DNA of 44,163 nt, from the NCBI GenBank assembly GCA_018814305.1, contig JAHJAA010000007.1:1-44163 (forward strand), in the 5' to 3' direction. The notes beneath the pieces were generated by a model, which did no database searches, was not told the origin of the DNA, and saw nothing but the letters and a program-made list of their open reading frames with translations. The stretch is from Pseudomonadota bacterium (GTDB lineage: Bacteria > Desulfobacterota > Desulfobulbia > Desulfobulbales > JAGXFP01). The translations under genes were made by a program, and so were the position numbers. Below, one piece after another: positions 2,453 through 31,825 of this stretch; position 1 is the stretch's first letter; each line of letters starts with the position of its first letter.

Positions 2453-2505
2453 AATGACTACTACTCGTTACAGTGTTCAAGACAACCATAGAATTAAGGA
2501 TAGTT

Positions 2506-3396: not shown

Positions 3397-3410
3397 TTAT
3401 TAAGGAAAAA

Positions 3411-5720: not shown

Positions 5721-7113
5721 TGCCGGGGAGATATCAGTCATATCCTGAATATAAGGATTCTGGGGTGGAGTGGTTGGGAAATGTTCCTCTAGTTTGGAAA
5801 GTTTTGCCGTTGAAATTTGTGTCGGAAAACAGAGTAAAAGATGGTCCGCACGAAACACCTAAATTCATAGATGAAGGAGTACCTTTTTTCTCGGTAGATA
5901 GTATCCAAGACCATCAATTGATTTTTGAAGGTTGTCGTTATATATCGCCAGATGATCATAAAAGGTTTTCGTTAAAGTGCTTACCAAAGAAAGGTGACGT
6001 GCTTTTGGGGAAAGCAGCATCCGTAGGGAAAGTAGCCTATGTGGATACTGAAAGGGAATTTAATGTTTGGTCGCCACTGGCTGTAATCACACCTCAAAAT
6101 GGGAACTTAGGTAAGTTTATTTTTTATAGTTTTCAATCCGCAGGGTTACAGGCTCAGTGCGATATATTTAGCAATTCAAATACTCAAAAAAATCTAAGTA
6201 TGCAGGTCATTGACAATCTTACATTCGCACTTCCATCTATAGGCGAAGCTAATCACATTGCCAACTTCCTCGACCACGAAACCGCTAAAATCGATACCCT
6301 GATCGAAAAACAACAACAGCTCATCAAGCTGCTCAAAGAAAAACGCCAGGCCGTGATTAGCCATGCCGTGACCAAGGGGCTGAATCCCGAGGCTCCCACG
6401 CGCAACTCAGGGGTTGAGTGGTTGGGGGATGTGCCTGAACATTGGAGAATTGTAAGGCGAATTAAATTTATATCCTCACTAAAGGGGCGTCTTGGTTGGC
6501 AAGGGTTGAAGGCAGATGAATATATTGATGAAGGTCCGTACGTCCTTAGTAGTGCGCATTTTAGCAATTATATAATTCAATGGGATGCTTGTCCCCACGT
6601 TTCCTTAGAGCGTTATAAACTTGATAGTAATATTCAACTCGCTGAAGGAGATATTTTACTTATGAAAGATGGTGCGGCTCTGGGTAAATTGGCTTATGTC
6701 GATAACCTCCCAGGTAAGGCTTGCCTCAACAGCCACTTACTTCTCTTCCGGCCTGTTAAGAAAAATGGAGAAATGAGTTACATCCCTAAATTCATGTTTT
6801 ACTTCATGCAAACAGATTTATTTCAAGATTATGTAAAAGTAAATGGAACTGGTGCTACATTCCTTGGAATATCGCAACAGGCTGTAGGTAATTATCGCCT
6901 AGCATTTCCCCCACAAACAGAACAACAGGAGATAGTCGATTATTTGGAAATGGAGACTTTCAAATTGGATTCGCTTGAAGAAAAACAGCGACAGATGATG
7001 AATCTATTGCAAGAACGCCGCACCGCCCTCATCTCCGCCGCCGTGACCGGTAAAATCGATGTCCGCAACTGGCAAGCCCCAGCCCAAAACCAAATCAATA
7101 AGGAAGAAGCCGC

Positions 7114-7117
<4 letters not shown>
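5720..7117 (+). CDS. hsdS: Type I restriction-modification system, specificity subunit
   Basis: The 465-residue protein shows the internal duplication of HsdS. Two target-recognition domains each open with SGVEWLGxVPxxW (residues about 12 and 230) and each close with a coiled-coil spacer (KQQQLIKLLKEKRQAVISHAV; KQRQMMNLLQERRTALISAAV). Each domain reads one half of the bipartite DNA target, so the target itself cannot be deduced from sequence. The DNA coding for the two recognition domains is clearly more AT-rich than the spacers and the flanking hsd genes, as expected from domain shuffling. The TGA stop overlaps the hsdR ATG (ATGA at 7114). Confidence 0.95.
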
Positions 7118-10377
<3,260 letters not shown>

Positions 10378-10431
10378 GGCCAAGCTCAATAAGCTTGACG
10401 CCAGAGGATTAAGAAAAAAAGGAAGAAATTA

Positions 10432-11928
10432 GTGAGTAAACACACTTCCACAATCGGTTTAAGTAAAACTTCTCTCCTTAAGGGCATGCAATGCCTGAAA
10501 GCGTTGTACCTTTCCAAGAACCCTCCTGCGTTTGAAATACCTTTCGATCCTGATCTTGAAGCCAAATTCACCTTGGGGCATGAAGTAGGGTTTCTCGCCC
10601 AGCAGCTATTTCCAGGCGGCACGGAAGTACCCTTCTCCGGTTTAACCGTTACAGAACAGATCGCTAAAACCCAGGAACTTATCAACGCCGGGGCCGAGGT
10701 TATTTACGAGGCCTCTTTTGCCTTTGATGGCATTTTCATCAAGGCCGATATTCTGGTGAGGAACGGGGCTGCTTGGGAAATTCACGAAGTAAAGATGGGT
10801 ACCAAAGTCAAGGACCCCAATTCTGATGATGCGGCGATCCAGTATTACGTGGTCACCAACTCCGGTCTGCCGGTTGCCAAAGTGTTTCTCGTCCATATCA
10901 ACAACCAGTACGTTCGACAGGGCGAGATTGACGTGCAGCAGTTGTTCACCAGCGAGGATCTGACCGAAACGGCCCTGGCCCGACAAGCAGCTCTGCCGGG
11001 TATTGTTGCCGACCTGCGTCAGGTTCTTAAGGGCGATGAACCGGCCATCGATATTGGCCCGTATTGCTCAACCCCATACGATTGCGAATTTGTCCCCTAC
11101 TGCTGGCAGCACATTCCCGAAGATTCGATTTTCTCCCTCAGAGGCCGTGGCATCAACAAGTTCGACTATTACCGTCAGGGAATTATCCGGCTTGAAGACC
11201 TGCCGCTGGACAAGCTGAACGACGCCCAACGCTTTCAGGCAATCTCCACAATCAACAAAAAAGACACCACCGAGCCTTCCGGGGTGAAGGCTTTTCTCGA
11301 CAGCCTCTGGTACCCCCTCTGTCATCTCGACTTCGAGACCTTCGATGCGCCGATTCCGCCTTTTGACGGCACCAGACCCTACCAGAAAATTCCATTCCAG
11401 TATTCCCTGCATATCCAGGAAAGCGAAGGCGCGGAACCGGTTCATTACGAATATCTGGTCGAACCCGGCAAAGATCCCCGCCGTGAACTGGCGGAAAAGC
11501 TGCTGGCGGAGATCCCGGAGGATAGTTGCATCCTGACTTACAACCAGACCTTTGAAAAAGGAGTCCTGAAGAATCTGGCGGGAACCTTCCCCGATCTGGC
11601 TCCGGCCATCAATACCCGGATCGAAAACATCCGCGACCTGATGGCCCCTTTCAAAAGGCGGGATATCTATCGCTGGCAGATGAAAGGATCTTATTCGATC
11701 AAAGCAGTTTTGCCAGCTCTGGTGCCTGACCTTTCTTATAATGGGCTCGACGTTTCGGACGGCATGATGGCCATGCGAGTTTACCATGAGATGTGTAAAA
11801 CTGATGATTCGGTAAAAGTTGTCGTGCTGCGCGGAGGACTTTTGGAATACTGCCGGTTGGATACATTGGCAATGGTAAAGATACTTAGAGAAACTAGCCG
11901 CTTTGTTTTAAGTGATGATGGGCCATAA
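10432..11928 (+). CDS. DUF2779 protein: Cas4/RecB-like Fe-S nuclease fused to DEDD-type exonuclease domain
   Basis: The start is GTG 10432 after a purine-rich AGGAAGAA. The N-terminal half resembles Cas4/AddB-type nucleases. It has an early cysteine (KGMQCLKALYL), an EVK catalytic element (EIHEVKMGTKVKD, residues about 118-130), and a late cluster of three cysteines spaced six apart (CSTPYDCEFVPYC), which with the first could bind a 4Fe-4S cluster. The C-terminal half, DUF2779, carries acidic motifs of an RNase H-like 3'-5' exonuclease (HLDFETF near residue 302, and YCRLDTLAM near the end). The protein lies 54 bases after hsdR within the defence cluster. Its substrate is unknown. Confidence 0.8.
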   Translation: MSKHTSTIGLSKTSLLKGMQCLKALYLSKNPPAFEIPFDPDLEAKFTLGHEVGFLAQQLFPGGTEVPFSGLTVTEQIAKTQELINAGAEVIYEASFAFDGIFIKADILVRNGAAWEIHEVKMGTKVKDPNSDDAAIQYYVVTNSGLPVAKVFLVHINNQYVRQGEIDVQQLFTSEDLTETALARQAALPGIVADLRQVLKGDEPAIDIGPYCSTPYDCEFVPYCWQHIPEDSIFSLRGRGINKFDYYRQGIIRLEDLPLDKLNDAQRFQAISTINKKDTTEPSGVKAFLDSLWYPLCHLDFETFDAPIPPFDGTRPYQKIPFQYSLHIQESEGAEPVHYEYLVEPGKDPRRELAEKLLAEIPEDSCILTYNQTFEKGVLKNLAGTFPDLAPAINTRIENIRDLMAPFKRRDIYRWQMKGSYSIKAVLPALVPDLSYNGLDVSDGMMAMRVYHEMCKTDDSVKVVVLRGGLLEYCRLDTLAMVKILRETSRFVLSDDGP

Positions 11929-11956
11929 GGCCTTTAACTTTAGGTGGAGAGATTAA

Positions 11957-13183
11957 ATGGACAATTTCCATGACCCTGTTCGACATTTAAAATACCTTAG
12001 GCAATCACTATCGCAAGATAATGAATCAATTGGCTTTTTCATATCTGCAGGATGCCCTTTAGCTGTTGCTATGCCAGAAGGAGATTGGCCGTTAATACCA
12101 GCAGTTGAAGAACTCACCAAATTCATTAATGAGCAGTTGAAAAACAATGGAAAATATAAGTTGCTACTAGATGAACTAAAGAAAGCTGAAAAAAATATCG
12201 AAAATATCGAAGATATTTTAAGTTTTCTTAGGAGCTTATTACTAGTGTCCAAGGGCGGTGATGTAAGGGGGCTGAGCGAAACTGATTTGTTGGGCTTGGA
12301 GCGGGATATTTGCGCAGAAATCGTAAAAAAACTTGACGTATATTTGCCTGACAACGAAACACCATACCACCGTCTTTGTAAGTGGATAAGGTCAATAGAT
12401 AGAAAAATTGCGGTAGAGTTATTTACAACGAATTACGATTTGTTAATGGAACAAGCGTTGGAAGATTTAGAGGTTCCTTATTTTGATGGTTTTGTGGGCT
12501 CAAGAAGGTCTTTCTTTGACCTTAGAGCGGTCGAAGATAATCTGATACCTACTCACTGGTCGAGGTTATGGAAAATACACGGGTCAATTAATTGGTATCA
12601 AGAGGAAATTGACGGCCAGAAAAAAGTATATCGATCTTCAGAAATAAAGAAAGACGCATCGCATTTGATATATCCATCCCATCTTAAATATGAAGAAAGT
12701 CGGAAGATGCCATACCTAGCATTGATCGATCAATTAAACAGGTTCATACGAAAGAAATCTTCTTTTCTTATCCTCTCTGGTTATTCGTTTAATGATGGCC
12801 ATTTGAACGACACAATTATAAATGCACTAAAAGCAAACCCAACAGCAATGGTTCTTGGGTTAATGTATGACAGATACGAAATAAAATCTGGCGCTGATAA
12901 ATTCGCCGAAAGATACCCCGCAGCATATAGATTAGCCAAAAACCAACATAATCTTAACATTTGGACATTTGACAAAGCTATTATCGGAACAAATTTGGGA
13001 TACTGGAAGAGAATTAAAAACAAGGACGATGACGATATAGATTTGCTGCATTTTATTTGTCGCGAGGAAAAAGCTGCCGATGCCGATGCCCATGAGGACC
13101 TAATTAAACTTGGGAATTTCTCTGTATTTACGGACTTCCTTAAAAAGATAATAGGCATACCCAGGGAAGGTCAGGATGACTAA
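11957..13183 (+). CDS. SIR2-domain NADase of a SIR2-HerA defence pair
   Basis: The 408-residue protein has SIR2-like motifs: FFISAGCPL near residue 28 in place of the classical GAGxS loop, TTNYDLLMEQAL near residue 155, and WKIHGSINW near residue 205, with the His in the usual catalytic position. Bacterial SIR2 proteins in defence loci usually degrade NAD+ rather than deacetylate. The gene overlaps the next (HerA-like) gene by 8 bases. SIR2-HerA pairs are known antiphage systems in which the two proteins form a large complex; this is established family knowledge, not shown here. The coding DNA is more AT-rich than the hsd genes, suggesting a separate origin. Confidence 0.85.
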   Translation: MDNFHDPVRHLKYLRQSLSQDNESIGFFISAGCPLAVAMPEGDWPLIPAVEELTKFINEQLKNNGKYKLLLDELKKAEKNIENIEDILSFLRSLLLVSKGGDVRGLSETDLLGLERDICAEIVKKLDVYLPDNETPYHRLCKWIRSIDRKIAVELFTTNYDLLMEQALEDLEVPYFDGFVGSRRSFFDLRAVEDNLIPTHWSRLWKIHGSINWYQEEIDGQKKVYRSSEIKKDASHLIYPSHLKYEESRKMPYLALIDQLNRFIRKKSSFLILSGYSFNDGHLNDTIINALKANPTAMVLGLMYDRYEIKSGADKFAERYPAAYRLAKNQHNLNIWTFDKAIIGTNLGYWKRIKNKDDDDIDLLHFICREEKAADADAHEDLIKLGNFSVFTDFLKKIIGIPREGQDD

Positions 13184-15047
13184 TAAAGAAACCTACCTTG
13201 GTGATGTGCAAGATGTTAATGGAACCACCGTCAGTATTTCATTATCGAAGGAATCTTTAACGGGATTTGTATACATTGACGGCCAGGGATATCGTGTAGG
13301 CCAAATAGGTAGTTTTATAAGAATACCTATAGGTTTTAATGACCTGTTCGGTATTATCAGTCAAGTTGGCGCAAGCGCTATTCCTGAAAAACAAGCTGAC
13401 AACCAAGTTCATGGTAATAGGTGGATGACAATCCAGTTGATAGGAGAAGGCCCAAGAAACGGAACATTCCAAAGAGGACTTTCACAGTACCCAACCATTG
13501 GCGACGAAGTTCATTTAGTATCAGAAAAAGAACTAAAAAATATTTATGGGCAACCGGACAAACCATATTTTGTAAGGCTTGGGCACATATCAAACGCAGA
13601 TTCAATTCCGGCATTAATCGATGTAAATAAGCTAATCACAAGACATTCCGCTGTAGTCGGTACAACCGGTTCCGGAAAATCTACCACAGTGGCAAGCATC
13701 ATGAATGCGCTGTCTGATAGTGAGATGTATCCTTCTTCAAGAATTATCCTGCTAGATCTCCACGGAGAATACGGACAAGCGTTACAAGAGAAGGCACATA
13801 TTTATAAAATAAAAGGAGATGCATTTTCAAAGTTAAAAGAGCAAGAATTGCACATACCCTTTTGGGCATTAAATTTCGACGAGTTATGCGAGATTAGCTT
13901 CGGCGAGTTTAATAATGAAAAAGATAGAAATATAGTAATGGAGAGAGTGCAAAAATACAAAATTGAATCCTTGGCAAAACACCCACGAAAAGGAGTAACT
14001 GCCGACACACTTAGTGTTGACTCGCCAATTCCGTTCAGTATCCACCATTTGTGGCATGAGTTATTCATTGAAGTGTTTGGAACTTACTATAAAGGGAGAG
14101 CCGGTAAACCTATTGATAATCTGGCTTACGAAACGGACACCAATGGGAATGAGTTAAAAGGAATTCCAGAAAAAGGTATCCCTCCTATTTTTAAAAATAT
14201 CGTAACCGAAGCAGGTGAAGAAAAAATCAATTACTTGCCAGGTTCATTAAATGTAGGAAAGCAAGTTCTATTGTTGGGAACCAAACTAAGAATTCCTAGG
14301 TATGATTTTATTTTGAAGCCCGGTGATTTGACACCTGACGTTGAAGGAAAAGTCGTACAAGACTTAGATTTCCTTCTTAAGAATTGGATAGGTAGCAATA
14401 GGCCCGTTACGATACTAGATCTGTCTGGAATACCTGCCGATATTTTACAAACAACGATAGGTGCACTTCTTAGATTGCTGTATGAAGCTTTGTTTTGGGC
14501 TAGAAATTTGTCTCAAGGTGGTAGGCATAGGCCTCTGCTAGTAGTCATGGAAGAAGCGCATATTTATTTAAATGATGATTTAAAAGGCATGGCGTCAAAG
14601 ATAGTTCAGCGCATTGTTAAAGAGGGGCGAAAATATGGGATTGGTGGCATGATCGTGAGCCAGAGACCCTCAGAAATTAACCCTACAATACTTTCGCAAT
14701 GTGGCACATTCTTCGCTCTCAGGTTAACTAACGGTTCGGATAGAAAGCATATCACATCTGCTTTGTCAGATAACCTGGACGGCCTAACGGGCATGTTGCC
14801 CATATTAAGAACGGGCGAAGCAATAATTTTGGGCGAAGCTGTCAAATTGCCAATGCGGACAACAATAGAAGCGCCACCGAAGAATAGAAGGCCAGATAGT
14901 CAAGATCCCATTGTTTATGATGAGATCCCGTCAGACAAATCGCAAAACCCTGGTGGATGGGGTGTTAAGATGGAAGCGGAACCTAACTACGAAGAACTTG
15001 TTGAAGCCTGGAGAGCACAGAATCCGAAAATAGATAGAGTAAAATAA
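13176..15047 (+). CDS. HerA-family ATPase/DNA translocase of a SIR2-HerA pair
   Basis: The 623-residue protein starts with a small beta-rich HAS-barrel-like domain (residues about 1-130). The FtsK/HerA ATPase core follows: Walker A VVGTTGSGKST near residue 160, the LLDLHGEYG strand, and Walker B LLVVMEEAHIYL near residue 455. The conserved VSQRPSEINPTILSQCGT segment and the arginine-rich end follow. Such proteins form hexameric rings. In SIR2-HerA systems the ring assembles with SIR2, and both NAD+ consumption and DNA cleavage have been reported. All motifs look intact. It is followed 13 bases later by the small KTSC gene. Confidence 0.9.
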   Translation: MTNKETYLGDVQDVNGTTVSISLSKESLTGFVYIDGQGYRVGQIGSFIRIPIGFNDLFGIISQVGASAIPEKQADNQVHGNRWMTIQLIGEGPRNGTFQRGLSQYPTIGDEVHLVSEKELKNIYGQPDKPYFVRLGHISNADSIPALIDVNKLITRHSAVVGTTGSGKSTTVASIMNALSDSEMYPSSRIILLDLHGEYGQALQEKAHIYKIKGDAFSKLKEQELHIPFWALNFDELCEISFGEFNNEKDRNIVMERVQKYKIESLAKHPRKGVTADTLSVDSPIPFSIHHLWHELFIEVFGTYYKGRAGKPIDNLAYETDTNGNELKGIPEKGIPPIFKNIVTEAGEEKINYLPGSLNVGKQVLLLGTKLRIPRYDFILKPGDLTPDVEGKVVQDLDFLLKNWIGSNRPVTILDLSGIPADILQTTIGALLRLLYEALFWARNLSQGGRHRPLLVVMEEAHIYLNDDLKGMASKIVQRIVKEGRKYGIGGMIVSQRPSEINPTILSQCGTFFALRLTNGSDRKHITSALSDNLDGLTGMLPILRTGEAIILGEAVKLPMRTTIEAPPKNRRPDSQDPIVYDEIPSDKSQNPGGWGVKMEAEPNYEELVEAWRAQNPKIDRVK

Positions 15048-19957: not shown

Positions 19958-19985
19958 TTGACAAGCAGAAAATTTTCAGTATAAT
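19958..19985 (+). promoter_or_regulatory. Strong sigma-70-type promoter reading into the TGA-rich block
   Basis: TTGACA at 19958-19963 and TATAAT at 19980-19985 are both perfect consensus hexamers, 16 bases apart. The expected start point is near 19992, directly at the tRNA T-arm-like fragment and about 40 bases before the first ORF of the block. Confidence 0.7.
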
Positions 19986-19990
19986 TTATT

Positions 19991-20009
19991 CACGGTTCGA
20001 ATCCGGGCC
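19991..20009 (+). other. tRNA T-arm-like fragment
   Basis: CGGTTCGAATCCGG contains the invariant TTCGAAT loop of a tRNA T-arm with a short stem (CGG/CCG). No D-arm, anticodon arm or matching acceptor strand can be found upstream, where the promoter lies instead. It is probably the 3' end of a tRNA gene left as an attachment-site remnant. A deleted tRNA gene directly behind a tRNA-like promoter is the alternative. Confidence 0.4.
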
Positions 20010-20034
20010 AATTATTTTCTAACCAAATCTCCTC

Positions 20035-20292
20035 ATGCCTACACCTACCTACATGACATCGATTCAGGTCGATGTATTCGAGTCCTGAAACAATTCGAAA
20101 ACACCGGGATCTTCGGCTGCTTCCACCCATCGCACCAAGGTCTATTACGACCTTGTTGAACTGACTCCCGATCAAATCAAAGTAATTGTAAAAATGACAG
20201 CAATCTTGAGTCGTGGAATTTACGACTCCCACCTGCCCCAGTCTCTGGAAGAACAGGTAACCGGAGAGTTGAATATAAATTGCCCTGAGTAA
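20035..20292 (+). CDS. Small protein, unknown; one in-frame TGA (read as Gly)
   Basis: Read with TGA as glycine, this frame runs 85 residues from ATG 20035 to TAA 20290-20292, with one TGA at 20086-20088 in an ESGNNSKTPG context. The later half (KVYYDLVELTPDQIKVIVKM and SLEEQVTGELN) looks like ordinary helical protein. In the standard code it would be cut to 17 residues. It lies just behind the strong promoter at 19958 and is followed by the hairpin at 20313. No Shine-Dalgarno sequence is visible. I know no family. It is the weakest of the four TGA-containing genes because only one TGA is present. Confidence 0.45.
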
Positions 20293-20312
20293 TGGCCTTC
20301 AGTAGCCAAAAC

Positions 20313-20335
20313 TGGCTGTTTCTCAGAAACAGCCA
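20313..20335. terminator. Perfect 10-bp hairpin, possible terminator
   Basis: TGGCTGTTTC (20313-20322) and GAAACAGCCA (20326-20335) form a perfect stem with a 3-base loop, 20 bases after the TAA at 20290. There is no T-run on the plus strand, but a short one follows on the minus strand. It may act as a transcription or processing signal. Confidence 0.4.
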
Positions 20336-20382
20336 TAAAACAACGAAAACCAAAACAAAAATACCCCTTAACACCATATAGT

Positions 20383-21756
20383 ATGAAGAGATCAAAAACA
20401 GAATCTATACTGACCCACCTGACTCATTTTCTTAAATGGCTCTATCGCCCATTTCAGATTTATTCTCTGCACACCTTTTATTTCAGGATGAGAAAAATAC
20501 TCCCGCTCCACGCCTTTAAAAGACACGGATATATCGTCGCCTCTTCCGGTAGTGGGAAGAGTGAATTCATAAAAGTTCTGCTGTATCGTGAACTGATCAA
20601 AAAGAACCCGAATAACAGCATTATTGTCATTGACCCACATTGAGACCTTGTAGAAGAAATAGCCAGACTCAAGCCGATGAAAAAACGTCGGATTTCCAAC
20701 CGCGTGGTCTATATCGATCCTTCTCTTCACCCAGGATACAGCCCCAGCATCAATCCCTTTGAAATTGATGACCGTAGTGAGAAAACCATCGCCCTGATGA
20801 CTCAGGAACTGAGGAGCATTTTCGAAATTCTGCTGCAGGATGCCAGTACAACAAACCAGATGAGCGCGATTTTGAGCCCGTGCATCGCCACCCTGCTCAG
20901 AAGGCCAGACAGCGATTTTTCCGATCTGCAAAGGTTTATGGATGACAACAACAATCAGGACTTGGTGGCACTTGGTGCACAGTCTCCCAATCCCCAGCAT
21001 CGTACCCTGTTCCAGACTCGCTTCTACAACAAAATGTATTCCGCGACAAAGCACGGACTTTATACCCGTATGCAGGTGCTGCTGAACGAACCTGTTTTTC
21101 AGAACCTGATATCCAATACGACAAGCCTAAAATTGAAGCAGCTCATTAACCAGAAGAAAATCATCCTGTTCAAACTGTCCTTGTGAGAGTCTGGAAGTGA
21201 CAGTGTGCAATCCTACGGAAGATTTATTGTGGGCCTCCTGCGCATTTTGGCATTCCAGAGGAGCAGTATTCCCAAGGAATTCAGGGTGCCGACCTACCTG
21301 TTTATCGATGAATTCCAAAACTTTATTTCAGCTGATATTGAAAAAGCGCTTACCCAACTGAGGAAATATGGCCTTCATTTGGTTTTGGCCAATCAGTATA
21401 TCGGCCAGGTGGCATCCCCTGCATTGCAAAAAGCCCTCTTCTCAGCTGGGATCCTGATAGCCGGGAAAAATGAACGTAACAGCTTACGTGCGATCAGCAG
21501 GGAACTGGATGTCCCGATTCCTCTTTTGATGAACATGTCCGTAGGAGAATTCCTGGTGAGCACTCACCACCGGAAGCCATTGCTGATCAAGTCTCCCAAG
21601 CTGCTGCTGGATGGAAATTATTGTGTATCAAGCGAGGAGTGGCAAGAAATCAAAGCCAGAAATCTCCGCCAGTACTACTGTAAGCTCAGACCTTGGGTAA
21701 GCAACACCAGTAACTCCAGGGTCAGTAGATGACAAAAACCTGATACACTCCCCTAA
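20383..21756 (+). CDS. TraG/TraD/HerA-type conjugation ATPase with three in-frame TGA codons (UGA = Gly)
   Basis: In the standard code this is broken into three ORFs (20383-20643, 20677-21186, 21205-21732), all in one frame and separated only by TGA. Read with TGA as glycine it gives 457 residues ending at TAA 21754-21756. TGAs are at 20641, 21184 and 21730. Motifs run on across them: Walker A VASSGSGKSEF near residue 55, then VIDPH-TGA-DLVEEI, where the family has DPHGDL or DPKGDL, then FKLSL-TGA-ESGSDS, then Walker B-like TYLFIDEFQNF near residue 307 and LVLANQYIGQ. No frameshift and no internal TAA or TAG occur. It would be a DNA-transfer ATPase. No Shine-Dalgarno sequence precedes the ATG. 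Confidence 0.8.
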
Positions 21757-21791
21757 TCGCCTAACCCACCTATTTCTTAACCCTTCGTCCT

Positions 21792-22625
21792 ATGAATATC
21801 TCAGTCAACCAATTTATTATTTTGATGGCCCTGGCCAGATTCAAATTTCTGACATCTTCCCAGTTGAAACTCATATTGGGTTGCAAAAGCCTGAGTACGG
21901 TTAACAGTGCACTTCGTGGATTGAAATGATTTCGTTACCCATTGGTAAAAAGTATGGATTTCTGAGTTGCCCCTTGAAAATGAAGACTGGCACCAATCCA
22001 TCACTTGACCAAGACATGAAAGGATCAATTGCTGGAAGGAACCTCACTCACCCTGGAGGAGATTCAAAAGCCATCCTGAAGCGCCGTATTTTTCCAGAAT
22101 GATTATTTTCATCGTGTTTCCACTGTCCGGTTTGCCGTTTTGTTTCAGAAATGGCTGGCCGTCAATAATTATGGATTGGTTGAAATGGACCTCTACTTTA
22201 ACAGCAGGTACTTTGACGGCCAATTTCATACAGCCACCAGAACCTGGTCGCATGGCCGCGTTGTCGAGCCTGATGCCACCGCTATTTACAGCGCCAAAGG
22301 CGTCTACCACACCATTTTGTTCGAGCAACATAACGGTAGAGATGCCAAACGTGCACTGAAACAAATTAAGCAACACTGCCTTTGATTACTGAACGAGCGA
22401 TATCTGGTCCGTTTCACCCAGCGTGACGATATCCGCATCATTTATCTTTTTGAGAACCATCGCTGCATGAATGTGGTTATGAAATGAATGATGGTGAATC
22501 CGTTGATGAGATCTATTCAACACCTTTTCCTGTTCAAAGATGAAGATGAACTGCAACTGAGCTTTGCAGACGGATGGCATCATCCCGATGAAACAATCGT
22601 TTCATTCCTGCCCGGAGCCAAATAG
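21792..22625 (+). CDS. Replication-relaxation family protein with eight in-frame TGA codons (UGA = Gly)
   Basis: No standard-code ORF longer than about 90 codons exists here, yet one frame from ATG 21792 to TAG 22623-22625 gives a coherent 277-residue protein if TGA is glycine. TGAs lie at 21927, 21963, 21975, 21981, 22017, 22077, 22383 and 22485. The N-terminus is a winged helix (ALARFKFLTSSQLKLILG, then VNSALRGLK), followed by HHLTKT-TGA-KDQLLEG, where the family has a conserved LTxxG. The NDYFHRVSTVRFAV, VEPDATAIYSAKG and HTILFEQHNGRDAKRA segments match the C-terminal domain of replication-relaxation proteins of mobilisable elements. There is no internal TAA or TAG and no frameshift. Confidence 0.8.
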
Positions 22626-22713
22626 TAACCTATCCCCTCCGATTTAGCTGGACCCCGCTGTTCTCGACATAGGGTCGAGGATGGCGCCTGTCCAACTAAA
22701 AAGGAGTCTACTG

Positions 22714-23040
22714 ATGAGTACATTGCTTACAAAAGAATTGGTCAAAATGTTTGAGAATTACCCTCTCTATGCTCAGGACGGTGAGTCAGATCCTTTGGTG
22801 GTCGCCAAATTGTTTGATGCATATGGTTCGGGCACCTGGTATCTGACCGAATATAACCCGGCAGAACAGGTTGCGTTTGGCTATGTCACAGGCTTGGCGT
22901 ATGACGAATGGGGCTATGTCTCACTGAAAGAGCTCGAGGAAATTCGACATCCATTCTTTAAGGTAAACCGTATCGAACGAGACCTCTATTTTGTTCAACG
23001 GCGTTTCTCTGCACTCGGTCTCAAGGAGGCCACTCGGTAG
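22714..23040 (+). CDS. DUF2958 domain protein
   Basis: I chose ATG 22714 because AAGGAG lies at 22701-22706, giving 108 residues that end with TAG. It matches the DUF2958 family of small plasmid and integrative-element proteins: NYPLYAQDGESDPLVVAKLFDAYGSGTWYLTEYNP, then FGYVTGLAYDEWGYVSLKEL and the IERDLYF end (segments of one continuous stretch). It contains no TGA at all, so it is compatible with either code, and its stop is TAG. It is the only gene of the block with a clear Shine-Dalgarno sequence. The function of the family is unknown. A strong hairpin follows the stop. Confidence 0.8.
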   Translation: MSTLLTKELVKMFENYPLYAQDGESDPLVVAKLFDAYGSGTWYLTEYNPAEQVAFGYVTGLAYDEWGYVSLKELEEIRHPFFKVNRIERDLYFVQRRFSALGLKEATR

Positions 23041-23047
23041 AGAGGAT

Positions 23048-23074
23048 ATCAGCCAGGGAAACCTGGCTGATTTT
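23048..23074 (+). terminator. Terminator-like hairpin after the DUF2958 gene
   Basis: ATCAGCCAGG (23048-23057) and CCTGGCTGAT (23062-23071) form a perfect 10-bp stem with a GAAA tetraloop followed by TTT. It starts 7 bases after the TAG stop. Confidence 0.7.
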
Positions 23075-23456
23075 GCGAGTTTTGCATGTCGGATCTAACT
23101 CCTCAGCAAATCATCGCAATACGGAACTAATCGTCCATCGGTGCCTACGAAACGTCCCTGCCAACTTCCACGAAAAGACAACATCAATCCCCGGCAATTG
23201 TACGGTCCCCTTTCAAGGCAGTTTCTGCTTTTGGCTGCCGCCACAGCCGAACAGCTCTTGAAACCTCAACCATTAAAATTTTTCGGAAAAATATTCTCCT
23301 CCCCAAAAATCATCATTTTTTCTGGAAGACATTCATCCCAGTGTTTGCCATCAGCTCCCCTATTCCAATTTTTTTCAGATAAATTTGAGTGGCCTCGGAG
23401 CACCGTGGTCAATACCTGGGATTGATCGTCCCGATTTATTTTTTAATTTTTTGTTT
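23075..23456. other. Intergenic; no gene recognised
   Basis: Open frames at 23073-23261 and 23141-23425 overlap in different frames, lack ribosome binding sites and stay implausible whether or not TGA is read as Gly. The stretch is pyrimidine-rich toward its right end. It may contain the promoter of the next small gene, but I see no clear consensus. Confidence 0.4.
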
Positions 23457-23825
23457 ATGAACAATGAATTGCACAAATACGCTGAGTCGTATGAGGCTGA
23501 ACTCCTAGCCTATGAACAACTTGAACCAGTTGATTTTATCAAGGAGTACATCGATTCAAATTACACTGGTGACAGTGATGACGAGGATATGATGATCCAC
23601 GAATACTTCGATTGTTTAGAAGTTCAATATTACAAGAATGAACAATCAGATTATGACTATTTCGAAATCACTCTTGGCTACGGGTGACCGAATATCTATC
23701 TGAGTGTCAACAGCAGATGGAAAAGCGTTGAGTACATCATCGCCTGGTGAGGAGATAACTTTACAAAGGATCTCTCACACCTCTATGACACAGTCGTGCA
23801 GCTTTATGCATTGGACTGTTATTAA
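23457..23825 (+). CDS. Small acidic GGPN-motif plasmid protein with two in-frame TGA codons (UGA = Gly)
   Basis: In the standard code the frame stops after 76 residues. Read with TGA as glycine it runs 122 residues from ATG 23457 to TAA 23823-23825. The TGAs at 23685 and 23748 fall in FEITLGYG-TGA-PNIYL and YIIAW-TGA-GDNFT. Small proteins of conjugative elements with a C-terminal GGPN...W(G)GD pattern have glycine at both places. The N-terminus is acidic and helical (residues 1-50). The GTGATTA-free ending and the strong terminator 7 bases downstream support the extended reading. The function is unknown. Confidence 0.75.
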
Positions 23826-23859: not shown

Positions 23860-24111
23860 GTGATGTTAAAAATTGAACGTAAATGAGCTCCATTTCGCTC
23901 TTCATTTTATTCAGAGAGTGAGAAATTTCTTTTATCATTCTTGATGACCACACTTGAAAATCCCCCCAAATTTGATTTAATAGCTACTCAGGGACGATAC
24001 TGAGGCAAGATTGCATGTTCGTAACGAACTTGCGAACCTTGCCAGGGCCAGCCCTAGAACCCGGACTGCACCAGCCGAGCTGGGCAATCGAAAAAGGTCG
24101 GAGATTTTGAG
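23860..24111. other. Intergenic between recoded block and mobilisation operon
   Basis: This AT-rich stretch holds no gene that I can support. It contains the inverted repeats of the putative transfer origin at 24004-24043, and it marks the place where TGA usage changes from sense codon on the left to stop codon on the right. Confidence 0.5.
24004..24043 (+). other. oriT: Putative origin of transfer (oriT): nested inverted repeats
   Basis: Outer arms GGCAAG (24004-24009) and CTTGCC (24038-24043) enclose inner arms GCATGTTCG (24013-24021) and CGAACTTGC (24025-24033), which pair with one mismatch around TAA. It lies 68 bases upstream of the mobC-like gene and its relaxase. Nested repeats next to mobC are where MOBP origins are usually found. 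The nick site cannot be determined by eye. Confidence 0.5.
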
Positions 24112-24492
24112 ATGGATGACAACAGGTCTACCTATCAAAAGTCGTACCGTAAGCGGCATGCCGAAAGGCACCGACGGATCAGCATCTCTGTGTCCAATGC
24201 CGAGTACTCTGCCCTGGAACATATGGCACGCCGAGAGAACACCAAGGTTACTACCCTGGTCCGGGACTATGCCTTCGCCGGACTTTCCAGAACTCTTTCC
24301 GTGCCAAACGAACTGAAAGGCGAACTCCAGCAACTGAGTTTCCTGGTCCGGAATATTGCCAACAATGTGAATCAAGCCGCCCACTACTCGCATACACTCC
24401 GACAGGTAGCCGACGAAAATGGCTTGCTGCAACAGATCAAAAAACTGGAGGAAACTATTCATGCCTTCGTCCAAGAGAGGATGAAGCCATGA
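24112..24492 (+). CDS. mobC: MobC-like ribbon-helix-helix mobilisation accessory protein
   Basis: The 126-residue protein has a basic N-terminus and a ribbon-helix-helix-like segment (RRISISVSNAEYSALEHMA, residues about 20-40). The MobC signature LVRNIANNVNQAAH follows near residue 84, then a coiled C-terminus. MobC proteins bind oriT and help the relaxase open the DNA. GGAG at 24100-24103 precedes the ATG. Its TGA stop overlaps the relaxase ATG (ATGA, 24489-24492), so here TGA clearly acts as stop, unlike in the block just upstream. Confidence 0.8.
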   Translation: MDDNRSTYQKSYRKRHAERHRRISISVSNAEYSALEHMARRENTKVTTLVRDYAFAGLSRTLSVPNELKGELQQLSFLVRNIANNVNQAAHYSHTLRQVADENGLLQQIKKLEETIHAFVQERMKP

Positions 24493-25445
24493 TTATCAAA
24501 TCCATGTCCCGCAAGGAGTCCTCCTTCAATCAGCTGATCGACTACATGGGGTCTGGGAGAGCAGATGAGCGCTTCACTATCCTTCACAATATCTTTAGCC
24601 GGAACCCGGATCAAATCAAGGATGAATTTTACCAAAATGCTGGGTTCCTCCATCGCCGGACAGGCGGCAACTACATGTATCACGAAGTAATCTCTATAAC
24701 CCGGAGTGATCGACTGAGACTTGACGAGCAGAAGGAGAAATTACGGCAGATTGCAATGGATTACATCCGTGACCGTGCCGAAAATAACCTGGCCTATGGT
24801 GCCCTGCACGATGACCATGACAATAATATCCATTTTCATCTGATTATCAGTGCCAATGAGGTTTATTCCCGCAACCGACACCGACTCTCCAAGTATCGGT
24901 TTGACCAGATCAAGAAGGATTTGGAAAAACGAGTACTGGAATGCTATCCAGAGCTGCAGCAAAAAGAACTGATCAATCGCTCAGCAGGAGAACGCATATC
25001 AAACAAAGGTTCCGAGCTGAAGCGGCGAACCGGAAAAACCCCTCAACGTGATTTGGTCAGGGAAAAGGTCAAGACCATTTTTGAACAGGTTTCGACCAGA
25101 GAGGAGTTCCTTGAAAGTTTTGAGAAGGCTGGTTTGAATTTTTATATCCGGGGGAAAGCGCCTGGGGTGATCGATCTGCAGACCGGGCGGAAATTTCGCA
25201 TTAAAACACTAGGATTTCTCTCCCAGTATGAAAACATATCCCAGAAAATTGAAATGAACCTGATGCAGAAGTATGGACATACTGGCAATAAAAAAGCCCA
25301 AATGCATCAGGAAGAGAAATCGACAAAGAAGTGCTCGAAAATAACAAAAGAGGAACGAAACGACAAACGGAAGCAAGAGAAAATGGCCCGTCATCGAGCT
25401 CGTTCGCAGCAATCTGCAGGGGAAAAAGATGGCCACAAACGATGA
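24489..25445 (+). CDS. mobA: MOBP-type relaxase (MobA/VirD2-like)
   Basis: The 318-residue protein shows relaxase motifs: an N-terminal tyrosine in NQLIDYMGSG (residue about 19), the probable nicking residue, and the metal-binding histidine motif HDDHDNNIHFHLIIS near residue 108. The C-terminal third is very basic and Lys/Arg-rich. It would nick oriT and lead the strand through transfer. It overlaps the next gene by 17 bases. There is no large primase or helicase domain, so this is a small mobilisation relaxase. The TGA stop is genuine, because reading through would add only two residues before TAG and the overlap with virD4 is normal. Confidence 0.85.
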   Translation: MIIKSMSRKESSFNQLIDYMGSGRADERFTILHNIFSRNPDQIKDEFYQNAGFLHRRTGGNYMYHEVISITRSDRLRLDEQKEKLRQIAMDYIRDRAENNLAYGALHDDHDNNIHFHLIISANEVYSRNRHRLSKYRFDQIKKDLEKRVLECYPELQQKELINRSAGERISNKGSELKRRTGKTPQRDLVREKVKTIFEQVSTREEFLESFEKAGLNFYIRGKAPGVIDLQTGRKFRIKTLGFLSQYENISQKIEMNLMQKYGHTGNKKAQMHQEEKSTKKCSKITKEERNDKRKQEKMARHRARSQQSAGEKDGHKR

Positions 25446-26973
25446 TTGGAATAGTTGGTCAGGAAAAAAACGCCCCTCTTCAAAGAGCGTTCCACTTGGC
25501 GGATCACTGTTGTCAGATACCATGAAGGGAATCTTCAAAGGCGGCTTGTACCTTCTTGGCCGGAAACTCAACCGCTCAAAAGAAGGAGCAACCTTCGACT
25601 CAGAGTCTGATTATTCAAGCTATCTGAATTCGAGCAATAATGGACTGCTTCTGGATGGCGACAAACTGCGCCTTTCAGAAAGAGACAGCATACAGAATGT
25701 CTGTGTGATGGCCCGCATCGGAGCTGGAAAAACGTCTCGGTACATCATCCCGAATGTACTTGGTAGAGCCCGATCTAAATGCTCAATTGTAGTGAATGAC
25801 CCGAAGGGAGAAGTGTATCAAAACACCTCTGAGCATATGCGCAGGAGTGGATTCAAGGTTGTGGCCATCAACCCGGAAAATCTTGACGGAACCAGTCACT
25901 TCAATCCCCTTTCTGAAGCTAGGAGTGACATCGAGATAGAGCAGATTGCCGAAATTCTAGTGCGCAGTGGCACGCCAACGCATGGTGGGAAGGATGACTT
26001 CTGGATACAGGGATCTATTCGCTTTGCCAATCTATTCATCAAGTGCCTAAAGAATGCAGGTCGGACTAACCAAGGCTACTACAACCTCCATAACCTTTAT
26101 TACCTGTTCCAGAATTTTGGAGAAGATGGGAGGGACCTTGATAAATTCATGGTCAGGTATGCGAAAAATCCAGACGACCCACTCGACGATACCCTCTGGC
26201 ATGAGTGGCAGGGTGTGCTGACCGGCAACAAGGAGGGGGTTCAAAGTTTTATCCTGAATGGTATTACCGCTCTTAAAAGTTTATCCAACCGGAATCTTGC
26301 CGAGCTCACCTCTTATTCCGATATCAGCCTTGAGGATATTCGCAAGGAAAAGACTATCATATACATGATCACCCCTGCCCAGCATGCTGAATACTACAGT
26401 TTCCTCACCAGTCTGTTTTTTCGGAGTGTTTTCAATGCCTGCATGCGACAACTGCCAGACAAGCGGACGCTACCAGTCTACGTCCTCTACGATGAATTCG
26501 GGCACTCTACAATTCCCAATTTTGTTTCGACAGCGAACACCATCAGGGGCTACGGCGTTTCAATATCCATAATCCTGCAAAGCATAAGTCAGCTCAGGGC
26601 CAGGTATGGTGCGGAATACGCCAACTCGATCCAAGGTGGCTTTAATACCTATCTGACGTACGCAGGTGCCGATCCTGTGACTGCCGATTTTTTTGAGAAA
26701 GTTGTTGGTCGAGTTCGGCTGCGGCAAAAAGAAAATTACTTCGACCATGTAGAGCAATATCAAGAGTACAACCTGATGAATGCAGGAGAAGTCAGGACAA
26801 TAGATTCAGATGAAGCGCTGGTCGTTTCCGGCAACCGACAACCCATCAAGTTGAAAACTCTTCCCTATTTTCAAAATTGGTCCTTGATGCGCTGCGCGAA
26901 CAAAGGGCCAGCGCACCTGGCTCCCCCTGAATCGGCTGGTAAGAGGCTGCAGTATGTTGGGCTAGATAAATGA
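25429..26973 (+). CDS. virD4: VirD4/TraG-family type IV coupling protein
   Basis: The 514-residue protein has the coupling-protein core: Walker A ARIGAGKTSRYIIPNVL near residue 97, Walker B-like VVNDPKGEVYQ near residue 121, the VLYDEFGH motif near residue 350 and ILQSISQLRARYG near residue 383. It feeds the relaxase-DNA complex to a type IV channel. The usual N-terminal transmembrane anchor is missing. The two small membrane proteins directly downstream could supply it, which is an inference. No channel genes (VirB4, VirB6 and so on) are in the window, so the element is probably mobilisable rather than self-transmissible. Confidence 0.9.
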   Translation: MATNDDWNSWSGKKRPSSKSVPLGGSLLSDTMKGIFKGGLYLLGRKLNRSKEGATFDSESDYSSYLNSSNNGLLLDGDKLRLSERDSIQNVCVMARIGAGKTSRYIIPNVLGRARSKCSIVVNDPKGEVYQNTSEHMRRSGFKVVAINPENLDGTSHFNPLSEARSDIEIEQIAEILVRSGTPTHGGKDDFWIQGSIRFANLFIKCLKNAGRTNQGYYNLHNLYYLFQNFGEDGRDLDKFMVRYAKNPDDPLDDTLWHEWQGVLTGNKEGVQSFILNGITALKSLSNRNLAELTSYSDISLEDIRKEKTIIYMITPAQHAEYYSFLTSLFFRSVFNACMRQLPDKRTLPVYVLYDEFGHSTIPNFVSTANTIRGYGVSISIILQSISQLRARYGAEYANSIQGGFNTYLTYAGADPVTADFFEKVVGRVRLRQKENYFDHVEQYQEYNLMNAGEVRTIDSDEALVVSGNRQPIKLKTLPYFQNWSLMRCANKGPAHLAPPESAGKRLQYVGLDK

Positions 26974-28296: not shown

Positions 28297-28662
28297 ATGG
28301 AAACAGGGCATATTTACACACCAGAAAACGACACCTATCAAGCGAGACTCTCAGCACTCCAGGAGGTCCTTCGTGCACGTGAGCAGGTTAAACGTAGCCG
28401 TTTACACGCTGATTCGCCCGAGTGGTCAAATGCATTAGGTAGTCTTGAAGAGATTGAACAAGCCGAAGAGGTCATTGATGCCAGTTTCTCTATGGCAGCA
28501 CAGGATTTCAATAGAGAGGAACTCCAGCAGGCAAGGAGTGACAAAGCACTGACCGACAACCAATTGACAGAAATTATCAACGCTGTTCGCACCAAAGAGA
28601 TCGACGCGAAACGAAATGACAACAGTTCTGATGAAAAATCCAATTCGAATACACGCTCATGA
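28297..28662 (+). CDS. Unknown helical protein of the mobilisation operon
   Basis: The 121-residue protein is predicted to be almost entirely helical and rich in Glu, Gln and Ser (for example SLEEIEQAEEVIDASFSMAAQDF). GGAAGG at 28286-28291 precedes the ATG. Its TGA overlaps the next ATG (ATGA at 28659). I recognise no family or motif. Confidence 0.6.
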   Translation: METGHIYTPENDTYQARLSALQEVLRAREQVKRSRLHADSPEWSNALGSLEEIEQAEEVIDASFSMAAQDFNREELQQARSDKALTDNQLTEIINAVRTKEIDAKRNDNSSDEKSNSNTRS

Positions 28663-29093
28663 AAAATCAGCCATTCTCAGACAACATGAAAGAGATCGCC
28701 GACAGCATGGGCATTTCTTTGTACCAGCGGTTCAGCCTCAATGAAGCATCTCTCTTTCTGCGTTGTTCAACAGAGGACCTTTTGAAGATCACGAAATCAC
28801 ACACAATCTCCTTTATCCAGGTAACCCGGGATCAGGTCGATTTCTTTGGTTTCCAACTCCTGGATTATTTGCTGAATAACGTAGTAACCAAAGCCCAGCC
28901 AGCTCCTTCTAAATCAAAGACCAACCCAGAGCGAATTGTTCGGGCAAAAGAACTCCAGGAATTGACTGGATTGTCACGAACAACTATCTGGAGAATGGAA
29001 CGGGACGGCAAATTCCCCTCGCGAGTCCCCCTTTCAGGGAGCAGCGTAGGATGGCGATATACTGAGCTTATGGATTGGATGAGGACGAGATAA
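28659..29093 (+). CDS. AlpA-like helix-turn-helix regulator
   Basis: The 144-residue protein ends in a MerR/AlpA-type helix-turn-helix (residues about 95-140: RAKELQELTGLSRTTIWRME, then DGKFPSRV and a GWRYTELMDWM end), as in phage and integrative-element regulators. The N-terminal half has a second helix-turn-helix-like part (FSLNEASLFLRCSTEDLLK). As last gene of the mobilisation operon it may regulate transfer or excision. No integrase gene is seen nearby. Confidence 0.75.
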   Translation: MKNQPFSDNMKEIADSMGISLYQRFSLNEASLFLRCSTEDLLKITKSHTISFIQVTRDQVDFFGFQLLDYLLNNVVTKAQPAPSKSKTNPERIVRAKELQELTGLSRTTIWRMERDGKFPSRVPLSGSSVGWRYTELMDWMRTR

Positions 29094-29383
29094 AGGAACT
29101 GAAGTTTGTTTTAGAACACAGGACTTGAGATTTTGTGACCTTTACGCTTATTTTCTGAAACAAAAACCGACCTACTTAGTGTTTTGCTGGTCTAGCTGAA
29201 ATTACGCATAAAATACACTGAGAATACTCTAGCAAACATATTGCTTTACTACTATTTTTAAAAGTATACAGTAGTTGTCTGGGAGGCATATACACACTCT
29301 CTGGATGTAAAAACATACTATGTTACGTATAAAAAATGCAGAAATGCTCTGAAAATTTGAGCTGCTTAGGGGTTAAATCGAAA
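29094..29383. promoter_or_regulatory. AT-rich intergenic region with possible promoter
   Basis: No gene is visible here. TTGCTT at 29241-29246 and TATACA at 29265-29270, 18 bases apart, form a possible sigma-70 promoter for the three-gene system that follows. The base composition drops sharply from here to about 37 kb. Confidence 0.4.
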
Positions 29384-31825
29384 ATGAAAATTACTGATGG
29401 CTCAGGAGCAGACCTTACTTCAAACAAAGTTATTGATAGCCTTAGAAACAAAAAAATAAATATAAGACTTAAAACTGAGCATTCAATTTTAGGAATTAAG
29501 GGGCGCAAACAGTTAGCTAAGCTATTTGATGTTGTTAGCGAGTTTCTTCAAAATAAGAAAATAAATCCCGGTCATATCAAGGGGATGATTGAAATTGTGT
29601 TTGACCCTCATACAAAGAGTTTCGATCCTACAGTTGCCGCTTGGGGGATTCTCTTTTCAGGATTGTTGACTAAGGTTACTTTTAGGTTTTCCTTTCCTCA
29701 TGGAGACGTAGGTAAGAGCCCCGCTTTATATCGCCTGAGTCAAATACTTCTTCCACATCTTGTGTTGAAGAAAACCAATATTGAGTTGCGGTCCTATGAT
29801 ATAGGAAGACCTGGGAAGCTATTCTCTTGGCAAAATTTTCTGCGTCAACACCTTAGGGTCTCATCAGCATATCTGCCACCAATAAATCTTAACAATAAAA
29901 ATTATGTTTTTTACTTCGATAATAACGCAAGGGTTATCTGGAATAGTCTATTTAATGCAAGTGAAATTGCGAAGCTACTTGAAAAAAATGTTCCCCATAA
30001 ATCAACCTCTTCATCAAAAGACAAAGACATAGGTAAATTAATATTTAATATTATTCGTGAAAGATTGTTAGATGAATTGTTTGATAATGGTGAAGTTAAT
30101 TATGAAAGAATTGTAAATGTTTTACTAGTATTATATATGGCAAAAGCAATAACATTATTGAAATGTTGGATAGTAGTCCTTGATAAATATATTTCAGAAG
30201 GAAGTAATGCTCGACTATATCGTTATGTGTCAGGAAAGTCTAGCAAGGTAGGCTCACTAAAATATAACGAAAAACTAGAATACTATAAGAAAAACAAAGA
30301 AATACTAAGTCAAGTATTTGATAGTTCTCCTTTTTCAGTCTTTTTGTTTTCTTTTTTTCTAATCAACAATTACTCCCCAAACATGTATTCAGGTGATCCC
30401 GATCATCAACTTGACAAATTATTAAGTCAAATAAAGTCTATTCGAAACGTTTCTGTTGAAATCTATTCAGGGGTTTATGAGTTAGCTAAAAACATTGTTG
30501 AACATGTTCCAGAAGGAAATGGTTTTATAATTGGCAGGGTGTTTACAGCTGATTATTTAAAGGAAATTTACTCAGAGGAGTATGAGGATTTCAGGACCTA
30601 CATAAATTCATTTCAAGGTGATCAGCAATTTTTTAATTGTGTTGTCTTTGATAATGGGAAAAAGGGCATTTTGTATAAAACTCAAAGCAAAATTACCAAG
30701 CTAATACCGTCGGTTCAAAACAAGATTCTTAAAAAGCATTTATCAGATGAATTGGAGTGTTTTAATAATCAAACACTGGGGTTGCATGATTTTTTTGATT
30801 TGAAACATGTTCGAATGTTTCACCAGAAAATCAGGACCGCCGCGAGCCTCGGTCTGTTAATGCTAACAAATATGCTACGCATTAATAACGGTTTTTTATC
30901 TGTCAGTAGTGTTGATAAACATGGAACTCAGGGGATAGTTTACTATGGGAATGAAACAAAATCTCTACAAGGGGAATGGTGGGCAAATATTGGTACCCAA
31001 TTTGAATTATTTGTGCCCGTGTCCGCCAAAAAACCTCTTGAGTTACGAGCTCGACAGTATAGGCCTGTAGAGCCAATTATAGCAGGCGATGCATATGAGG
31101 GGCTTCTTAACTATTGTACCATAGATGAGAAAGATGAAATTCATAGCTCCTGTAATATTTGTGATCCTCATGTATTGTGTCTACATAATTCCTCAACTAC
31201 CAATGTTCATTGGGAATCATTTCATCTAGAGCATGCAAAACTATTTAACAAAATCAGTAGTTCTAAATGTAATGATCACCATAGAAAAGTTTTCACAATT
31301 AAGATCGAAGACAATAACAATTTTATAGATGCGAGCGACCTATTTCGTTTGTTAGCACAGCTGCAAATTGAGGTGGGATATAATGCTGTCGTAATTTATA
31401 ACCTCAAAGAAGAAACGTTACATACCTTTTTTGAGATATTCAGAATATATGGAGAACTTTTGGGAATGGATGTTTGGAGTGGACACCAAACTGCACTTTT
31501 TTATTATGTCCCACAGAGTTCGTCATCCCATAAAAAGTTTAGCGCTTTTTTAGTTACAGGTCGAACTTTAAGGGATTTAGTGAATTCAAACGAAACCATA
31601 CATTCCCATAGCCCCGGTGATCCAATATGGAATGATTTCTTTCCTATGACGCAGAAAAGTGGAGAAGATGAAGATCTTATGGAGAAACAAATTGACAATC
31701 CACTGGTTATTGATGGGAAATACTTGATTCCACTGGATTTGGTGCTAAAAGTTGATGGGCTTTCGTTGTTCGAATGGAATATGCGCACTAACCTCTTAGA
31801 TGAATTGTTAGGAGGTGACTTGTGA
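29384..31825 (+). CDS. Large GHKL-ATPase-like protein, first gene of an unnamed three-gene system
   Basis: The frame is open from ATG 29336, but I prefer ATG 29384 (MKITDGSGADL), as no ribosome binding site precedes the first, giving about 813 residues. I do not recognise a named family. The middle has features of a GHKL/histidine-kinase ATPase: an N-box-like VYELAKNIVEHVPEGNG near residue 370, a D-box-like VVFDNGKKGI near residue 420, and a G-box-like AASLGLLMLTNMLRINNGFLSVSS near residue 490. A cysteine-rich stretch (SSCNICDPHVLC) follows near residue 590, which could bind metal. No His phosphoacceptor domain is evident. The coding DNA is very AT-rich. The stop overlaps the next GTG. Confidence 0.65.
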   Translation: MKITDGSGADLTSNKVIDSLRNKKINIRLKTEHSILGIKGRKQLAKLFDVVSEFLQNKKINPGHIKGMIEIVFDPHTKSFDPTVAAWGILFSGLLTKVTFRFSFPHGDVGKSPALYRLSQILLPHLVLKKTNIELRSYDIGRPGKLFSWQNFLRQHLRVSSAYLPPINLNNKNYVFYFDNNARVIWNSLFNASEIAKLLEKNVPHKSTSSSKDKDIGKLIFNIIRERLLDELFDNGEVNYERIVNVLLVLYMAKAITLLKCWIVVLDKYISEGSNARLYRYVSGKSSKVGSLKYNEKLEYYKKNKEILSQVFDSSPFSVFLFSFFLINNYSPNMYSGDPDHQLDKLLSQIKSIRNVSVEIYSGVYELAKNIVEHVPEGNGFIIGRVFTADYLKEIYSEEYEDFRTYINSFQGDQQFFNCVVFDNGKKGILYKTQSKITKLIPSVQNKILKKHLSDELECFNNQTLGLHDFFDLKHVRMFHQKIRTAASLGLLMLTNMLRINNGFLSVSSVDKHGTQGIVYYGNETKSLQGEWWANIGTQFELFVPVSAKKPLELRARQYRPVEPIIAGDAYEGLLNYCTIDEKDEIHSSCNICDPHVLCLHNSSTTNVHWESFHLEHAKLFNKISSSKCNDHHRKVFTIKIEDNNNFIDASDLFRLLAQLQIEVGYNAVVIYNLKEETLHTFFEIFRIYGELLGMDVWSGHQTALFYYVPQSSSSHKKFSAFLVTGRTLRDLVNSNETIHSHSPGDPIWNDFFPMTQKSGEDEDLMEKQIDNPLVIDGKYLIPLDLVLKVDGLSLFEWNMRTNLLDELLGGDL

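Follow-up and report, generated by a model that had tools for sequence, protein, structure and literature searches.

A mobilizable island with neighbouring genes in the standard code and in a code with UGA as glycine

What is a transfer ATPase gene that is open only when UGA is read as glycine doing among genes that stop at UGA? The gene lies in a 44,163-nucleotide stretch of DNA, hereafter the window, which is the entire contig 25 of a 4,152,853-base genome in 92 contigs (96.7% complete). Most genes in the window stop at UGA, several of them with ATGA overlaps, and the presence of TGA stops in the same contig implies that RF2 is present in the cell.

The ATPase and its in-frame UGA codons

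A preliminary description, made from the letters of the window, had proposed a TraG/HerA-like ATPase interrupted by UGA at conserved glycines. The frame contains exactly three internal TGA codons, and its first TAA or TAG is the TAA at 21754–21756:

20383–21756, + strand: DUF87/TraG-like ATPase (P0001), UGA as glycine, no Shine–Dalgarno (SD) site
20641–20643, + strand: in-frame TGA at residue 87, invariant Gly/TGA column
21184–21186, + strand: in-frame TGA at residue 268, invariant Gly/TGA column
21730–21732, + strand: in-frame TGA at residue 450, variable tail

When translated with TGA as glycine, the gene matched PF01935 (E 1.4e-12) and PF02534 (E 4.6e-11) in a profile search. The DUF87 and T4SS-DNA_transf profiles together with the P-loop identify it as a HerA/TraG-type transfer ATPase, as proposed; the closest solved structure is TrwB (1e9r, E 9e-5). 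At residue 87, the eight aligned relatives have Gly (six) or TGA (two) and nothing else, and at residue 268 the seven aligned relatives have Gly (four) or TGA (three) and nothing else. Family alignments without Gly at these two columns had been named beforehand as the result that would speak against the proposal; the alignments were run, and Gly or TGA was found in every aligned relative. The third TGA adds the predicted eight residues before the TAA, in a non-conserved tail where three aligned relatives have Leu, Asn and Asn. The ATPase frame is open only with UGA as glycine.

A scan of 84,980 species genomes with the ATPase yielded 80 loci. In seven of these (L002–L008) the protein is 57–83% identical to the window copy. 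In-frame TGA was looked for in L002–L012 and in genome G158: it occurs, at partly different positions, in all eight relatives that are at least 46% identical (L002–L008 and G158), and is absent from L009–L012, which are 27–33% identical. The carriers include the isolate Colwellia sp. 1_MG-2023 I2R04 (L005, 345-kb contig), a Colwellia MAG (L007, 396-kb contig), and a chromosome of 4,773,423 bases in a single contig from the same family as Colwellia (G158); the remaining carriers include marine MAGs. Only the window's own copy was matched among the 257 genomes of its order, and only G001 itself among the 394 genomes of the order of G001. In viral contigs, the ATPase matched two distant relatives (29% and 26%), and Rep3, recombinase and Replic_Relax queries gave no match.

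A simple plasmid of CPR bacteria, as implied by the preliminary description, is not supported by these data: the window is a whole contig of a 4.15-Mb genome, most of its genes stop at UGA, and relatives occur in Colwellia and other standard-code genomes. What had been seen as a single gene is part of a gene-by-gene mixture of two codes within one element.

Two gene sets side by side

Four genes in the window, all within 20035–23825, are open only with TGA read through; elsewhere their genome reads UGA as stop. The genes of this UGA=Gly set end in TAA or TAG. Besides the ATPase, this run and the part of the window related to it contain:

20035–20292, + strand: small protein of 85 aa, one TGA, first of the UGA=Gly run, no Pfam match
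21792–22625, + strand: replication-relaxation protein (P0007), eight TGA, no SD site
22714–23040, + strand: DUF2958 protein in the standard code, strong SD site, no need for TGA read-through, flanked by two UGA=Gly genes
23212–23386, + strand: conserved structured non-coding stretch with covarying helices, between the DUF2958 gene and the next UGA=Gly gene
23457–23825, + strand: 122-aa protein (P0006, motif GYGGPNIY), two TGA, no SD site, no Pfam match
24004–24062, + strand: candidate oriT upstream of MobC, with a 66-bp alignment to L005 (76%) and also similar to L006; putative function
24112–24492, + strand: MobC-like protein, standard code, its TGA stop overlapping the relaxase ATG
24489–25445, + strand: MobA/VirD2-like relaxase (PF03432), standard code, TGA stop
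25429–26973, + strand: TraG/VirD4 coupling protein (PF02534), standard code, TGA stop
28659–29093, + strand: AlpA-type regulator (PF05930), standard code, with a relative in a Colwellia element
693–15047, + strand: standard-code defence cargo, comprising AbiEi/AbiEii (693–2452), type I restriction-modification (3411–10377) and a SIR2-HerA pair (11957–15047)

In G158, a 78-aa ORF with three TGA codons occupies the same place as the 85-aa gene. The window copy of the replication-relaxation protein has no Pfam match itself; its relatives in L003, L006 and G158 match PF13814 (Replic_Relax), and PF05713 is matched by the L005 relative of the window MobC. A Rep3 initiator with TGA codons is additionally present in L004, L005, L006 and L007.

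The MobC–relaxase–TraG module lies directly 3′ of the UGA=Gly run, and UGA=Gly genes are found near this standard-code module in all five elements in which transfer genes were seen (window, L005, L006, L007 and G158). The elements of L005 and L007 resemble each other over about 16–20 kb and not in their flanks, which indicates different insertion sites. A chimera of assembly or binning, in which a code-25 contig was joined to a standard-code one, might be suspected, since the window, like several relatives, comes from a MAG and contamination by code-25 contigs is known (passages in PMC8629427). We consider this highly improbable, however, because the same arrangement is found on the 345-kb isolate contig of L005 and on the single-contig 4.77-Mb chromosome of G158, because the alignment of the window with L006 spans both gene sets, and because the standard-code DUF2958 gene sits between UGA=Gly genes.

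With a relaxase, MobC and a coupling protein, the window has the mobilization genes of an integrative mobilizable element. No integrase was identified among the window ORFs scanned against families; a standard-code tyrosine integrase follows groEL in G158 (PF00589) and, as identified by similarity, in genome G002. Exact attachment repeats of at least 14 bp were not found in the flanks tried for G002 and G158, nor any of at least 12 bp for the L006 element. Outside the UGA=Gly and mobilization genes, the contig is rich in defence genes, and the like layout in relatives suggests that the cargo at 693–15047 is part of the element.

The structured stretch forms helices at 23212–23262 and 23276–23386 and is present in the window, L003, L005, L006 and L007. 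It contains 31 pairs, with 94% of cells paired and 11 pairs changed on both sides, and its covariation exceeds that of all 500 shuffles. It was not matched by ARAGORN or Rfam and is a candidate origin or regulatory RNA.

Several other features were observed. A promoter-like site, TTGACA-16-TATAAT, precedes the UGA=Gly run at 19958–19985, and a similar hexamer pair occurs in L008; the UGA=Gly genes may thus be transcribed in the present host. A tRNA remnant at 19985–20015 was considered as an attachment site and rejected for lack of conservation in L008 and L002. A 555-bp direct repeat (91% identical; 1888–2442 and 43403–43957) lies in AbiEii genes near both contig ends. Large genes in an AT-rich stretch (29336–36755, about 35% GC) encode proteins of 829 and 1323 aa that match no family well, followed by a weak response-regulator match; the stretch is taken to be foreign cargo, perhaps an undescribed defence system. 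An ISL3-family transposase (37138–38358) and a tRNA-Met gene (38523–38599) follow. Two further TGA=Gly candidates were seen in G158:

L150:13203–14783, given as − strand: serine recombinase, 18 in-frame TGA, just past the TraG end
L151:4141–5889, given as − strand: 582-aa protein, family not recognised, 14 in-frame TGA

Codon meaning, translation starts and selection

The meaning of UGA was determined in four families (ATPase, Replic_Relax, Rep3 and the 122-aa protein) from columns with TGA in one member and a sense codon in another. The 106 TGA codons fell in 59 usable columns, in which Gly had a weight of 38%, versus 3.3% at randomly masked positions; the highest of 20,000 random draws was 15%. 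Glycine was the best of the 20 residues for these columns (mean BLOSUM62 1.28), followed by Ser (0.14). An earlier run, in which some L002 codons containing N were counted as TGA, gave 1.18 for Gly, 0.13 for Ser, −2.32 for Trp and −2.37 for Cys. Trp and Cys or selenocysteine are thereby excluded, in agreement with the initial view that Trp or selenocysteine would be wrong at the DPHGD motif. The four families, including the ATPase, use UGA as in code 25. A change of GGA to TGA is a single mutation, and an ordinary pseudogene with chance nonsense mutations might thus be imagined. The large number of TGA codons in the four families, their enrichment at Gly and their varying positions among relatives leave this practically without credence.

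In the UGA=Gly set, CGG fell in six columns, for which Trp scored highest (2.2) and Arg did not rank among the top four. Apart from CGG, two of the columns are Trp (WWWWF and WWWWW), and it is on these two, neither from the window, that the assignment rests; the other four are variable or hydrophobic. In MobC, relaxase and TraG of the five elements, Arg was best for CGG (26 columns, 1.94, in the run with some L002 N codons counted). These alignments suggest that CGG probably encodes Trp in the UGA=Gly set and Arg in the standard-code set. Passages in PMC8629427 describe CGG as Trp in Absconditabacteria and some Gracilibacteria, in a GC range of 0.21–0.53. That the element as a whole is written in two codes we regard as very nearly certain.

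The two sets also differ in their translation starts. At annotated starts, an SD energy of −4 or below was found for none of 26 UGA=Gly genes and for 28 of 42 standard-code genes, after 1 of 27 and 3 of 45 rows, respectively, had been left out because no start codon stood at the stated position. When every candidate start was scored, with homologues counted apart, the Mann–Whitney p value was 5e-10, which overstates independence because the hand-picked gene lists and starts include homologues from several elements. All eight TGA-set gene families tested lack an SD site. For comparison, two Absconditabacteria (SR1) genomes are listed as having SD sites at 2% and 7% of their genes and as lacking the CCUCC core (PMC10783764, Table 4); no figure for Gracilibacteria was found in the literature searched.

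Selection was measured between the two Colwellia elements, L005 and L007, as other pairs were mostly saturated at synonymous sites and no ratio was formed for them. Under code 25, dN/dS was 0.129 for Rep3, 0.103 for the ATPase, 0.087 for Replic_Relax and 0.135 for the 122-aa protein; under code 11, it was 0.025 for MobC, 0.104 for the relaxase and 0.055 for TraG. The pS values were similar, 0.27–0.42 in the UGA=Gly set versus 0.30–0.39 in the mobilization set. Both gene sets are under purifying selection; the low dN/dS and similar pS show that both are kept as proteins, each in its own code, and diverge together. GC3 of the UGA=Gly genes is close to that of the neighbouring mobilization genes (0.52 and 0.535 in the window; 0.356 and 0.329 in the L005 element), which points to genes that have long resided in hosts of the present kind or have ameliorated to them.

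An island divided between two possible hosts

How the UGA=Gly set could be read in the present host was examined through its tRNAs. The window's genome has 43 tRNAs above the Rfam cut-off plus weak matches, and a UCA anticodon was found only in tRNA-Sec (G000:C19:3890–3979, L135), which indicates that this host uses UGA for selenocysteine besides stop. G158 has 92 tRNAs, none with UCA and with Gly anticodons GCC and TCC only, among the 150 of 334 first-look candidates scored. In the element stretches, ARAGORN, Rfam and a loose cloverleaf script returned nothing convincing for a UCA tRNA. As searched, the element, the window genome and G158 thus lack the tRNA-Gly(UCA) that goes with code 25, and the elements lack a suppressor tRNA of the kind expected for a recoded phage-like element.

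One explanation would be a dead import, in which genes captured a single time from a code-25 plasmid have since fallen silent and are decaying next to an ordinary mobilizable island. It would agree with the lack of any means of reading the set in the host as searched, and with the stops at residues 87 and 268, which would cut the ATPase. We think it unlikely, however, given a dN/dS of about 0.1 under code 25, the lack of TAA and TAG in 6,529 codons of UGA=Gly genes (in ORFs picked as open), and the linkage to the mobilization module, kept among elements with ATPases 46–68% identical. Alternatively, recoding could be regulated within the standard-code host, with a suppressor tRNA-Gly(UCA) switching the UGA=Gly genes on like the late genes of recoded phages. 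Phages with such tRNAs are in print (discussion of PMC10746230), and genes that follow host GC3 under purifying selection would be expected. Against it, UCA tRNA was found only as the tRNA-Sec of the window's genome, in the searches described, and a suppressor would leave the missing SD sites and CGG as Trp unexplained; we therefore consider this, too, a doubtful alternative.

The best explanation, and in our judgement a fairly probable one, is a mobilizable island that passes back and forth between a host with the standard code and a code-25 bacterium. A code-25 host is favoured because it accounts for TGA, missing SD sites and CGG together, whereas a suppressor accounts for TGA alone. The sequence-level basis consists of the two codes, the two types of start, joint descent, purifying selection and location in standard-code chromosomes. 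The UGA=Gly set includes the 85-aa protein, the DUF87/TraG ATPase, Replic_Relax and the GGPNIY protein, to which relatives add Rep3 and, next to the G158 element, a serine recombinase. The standard-code set includes MobC, relaxase, TraG, AlpA, DUF2958 and defence genes, and in relatives a tyrosine integrase. A division of labour between the sets seems plausible, since the latter corresponds to the needs of an integrated island and the former to those of a plasmid in another cell.

In the present host, the standard-code set would integrate, excise, be mobilized and defend the host, while the UGA=Gly set would remain silent. The element would then be transferred into a code-25 bacterium of the Gracilibacteria or Absconditabacteria type, attached to or preying on the host. 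There, Rep3 would replicate it as a plasmid, and Replic_Relax and the ATPase would send it onward. Whether this cycle across the code barrier is obligate, with the code deciding which genes are active in which cell, we judge to be evenly balanced. The second, code-25 host is a predicted one. A Gracilibacterium is described as rising in abundance with Colwellia, sharing a rare repeat with it and possibly having taken up its genes (passages in PMC6851277). PMC10746230 describes phages that code-25 and standard-code bacteria both target.

No relatives in code-25 genomes were found, but the sample could not have shown them because it contained no visible code-25 genome: ribosomal protein L2, used to spot such genomes, matched 107 of 116 Patescibacteria genomes, none with TGA. 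In 379 Patescibacteria genomes, the ATPase gave a distant match in 374 (best E 4e-40), with no TGA among the approximately 150 matches listed; query P0009 matched none of 361 genomes, at a threshold that was too strict.

The UGA=Gly set shares its reading of UGA with the code-25 bacteria (Gracilibacteria BD1-5 and Absconditabacteria SR1), their plasmids and phages, as well as scarce SD sites, as tabulated for SR1 (PMC10783764), and CGG as Trp, as described for part of the group (PMC8629427). Unlike in those bacteria, the genes lie in standard-code chromosomes, alternate with standard-code genes and have no tRNA-Gly(UCA) that we could find. Recoded and standard genes in one replicon are likewise found in crAss-like and Lak phages; those, however, have suppressor tRNAs (passages in PMC10746230), whereas the searches here returned none, and SD sites are missing from the recoded set as well. 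Phages of both code-25 CPR and standard-code bacteria, also described there, resemble the element in their proposed life in both kinds of cell, but they mostly avoid in-frame TGA and use one gene set in both hosts, whereas a separate set for each host is proposed here.

The element further resembles integrative mobilizable islands that have a P4-type integrase and AlpA: it shares with them AlpA, relaxase, coupling protein and defence cargo and, in relatives, a tyrosine integrase with an arm domain and a location beside groEL (G002 and G158). It differs in its additional genes, which are written in another code and include a replication initiator and an ATPase of their own. A plasmid of Sulfitobacter sp. 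S223 (NZ_CP083562.1) carries a related TraG (38%), a relaxase, a replication initiation protein and type I restriction-modification; unlike the present element, it is annotated in the standard code throughout, and the match covers only the standard-code module.

Phages are known in which a single replicon mixes codes, and differing genetic codes are usually regarded as an obstacle to the exchange of genes. This element seems to exploit such a difference, in that neither host could read the genes meant for the other. The literature searched contained no case of codes divided according to host, with a separate set of translation signals for each and no suppressor tRNA found. This reading can be tested now, as one carrier, Colwellia sp. 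1_MG-2023 strain I2R04, is an isolate. If true, such elements would record in DNA which standard-code bacteria come into contact with Gracilibacteria-like cells. They would also offer a natural shuttle vector for an uncultured group and a novel means of limiting gene expression to a single host.
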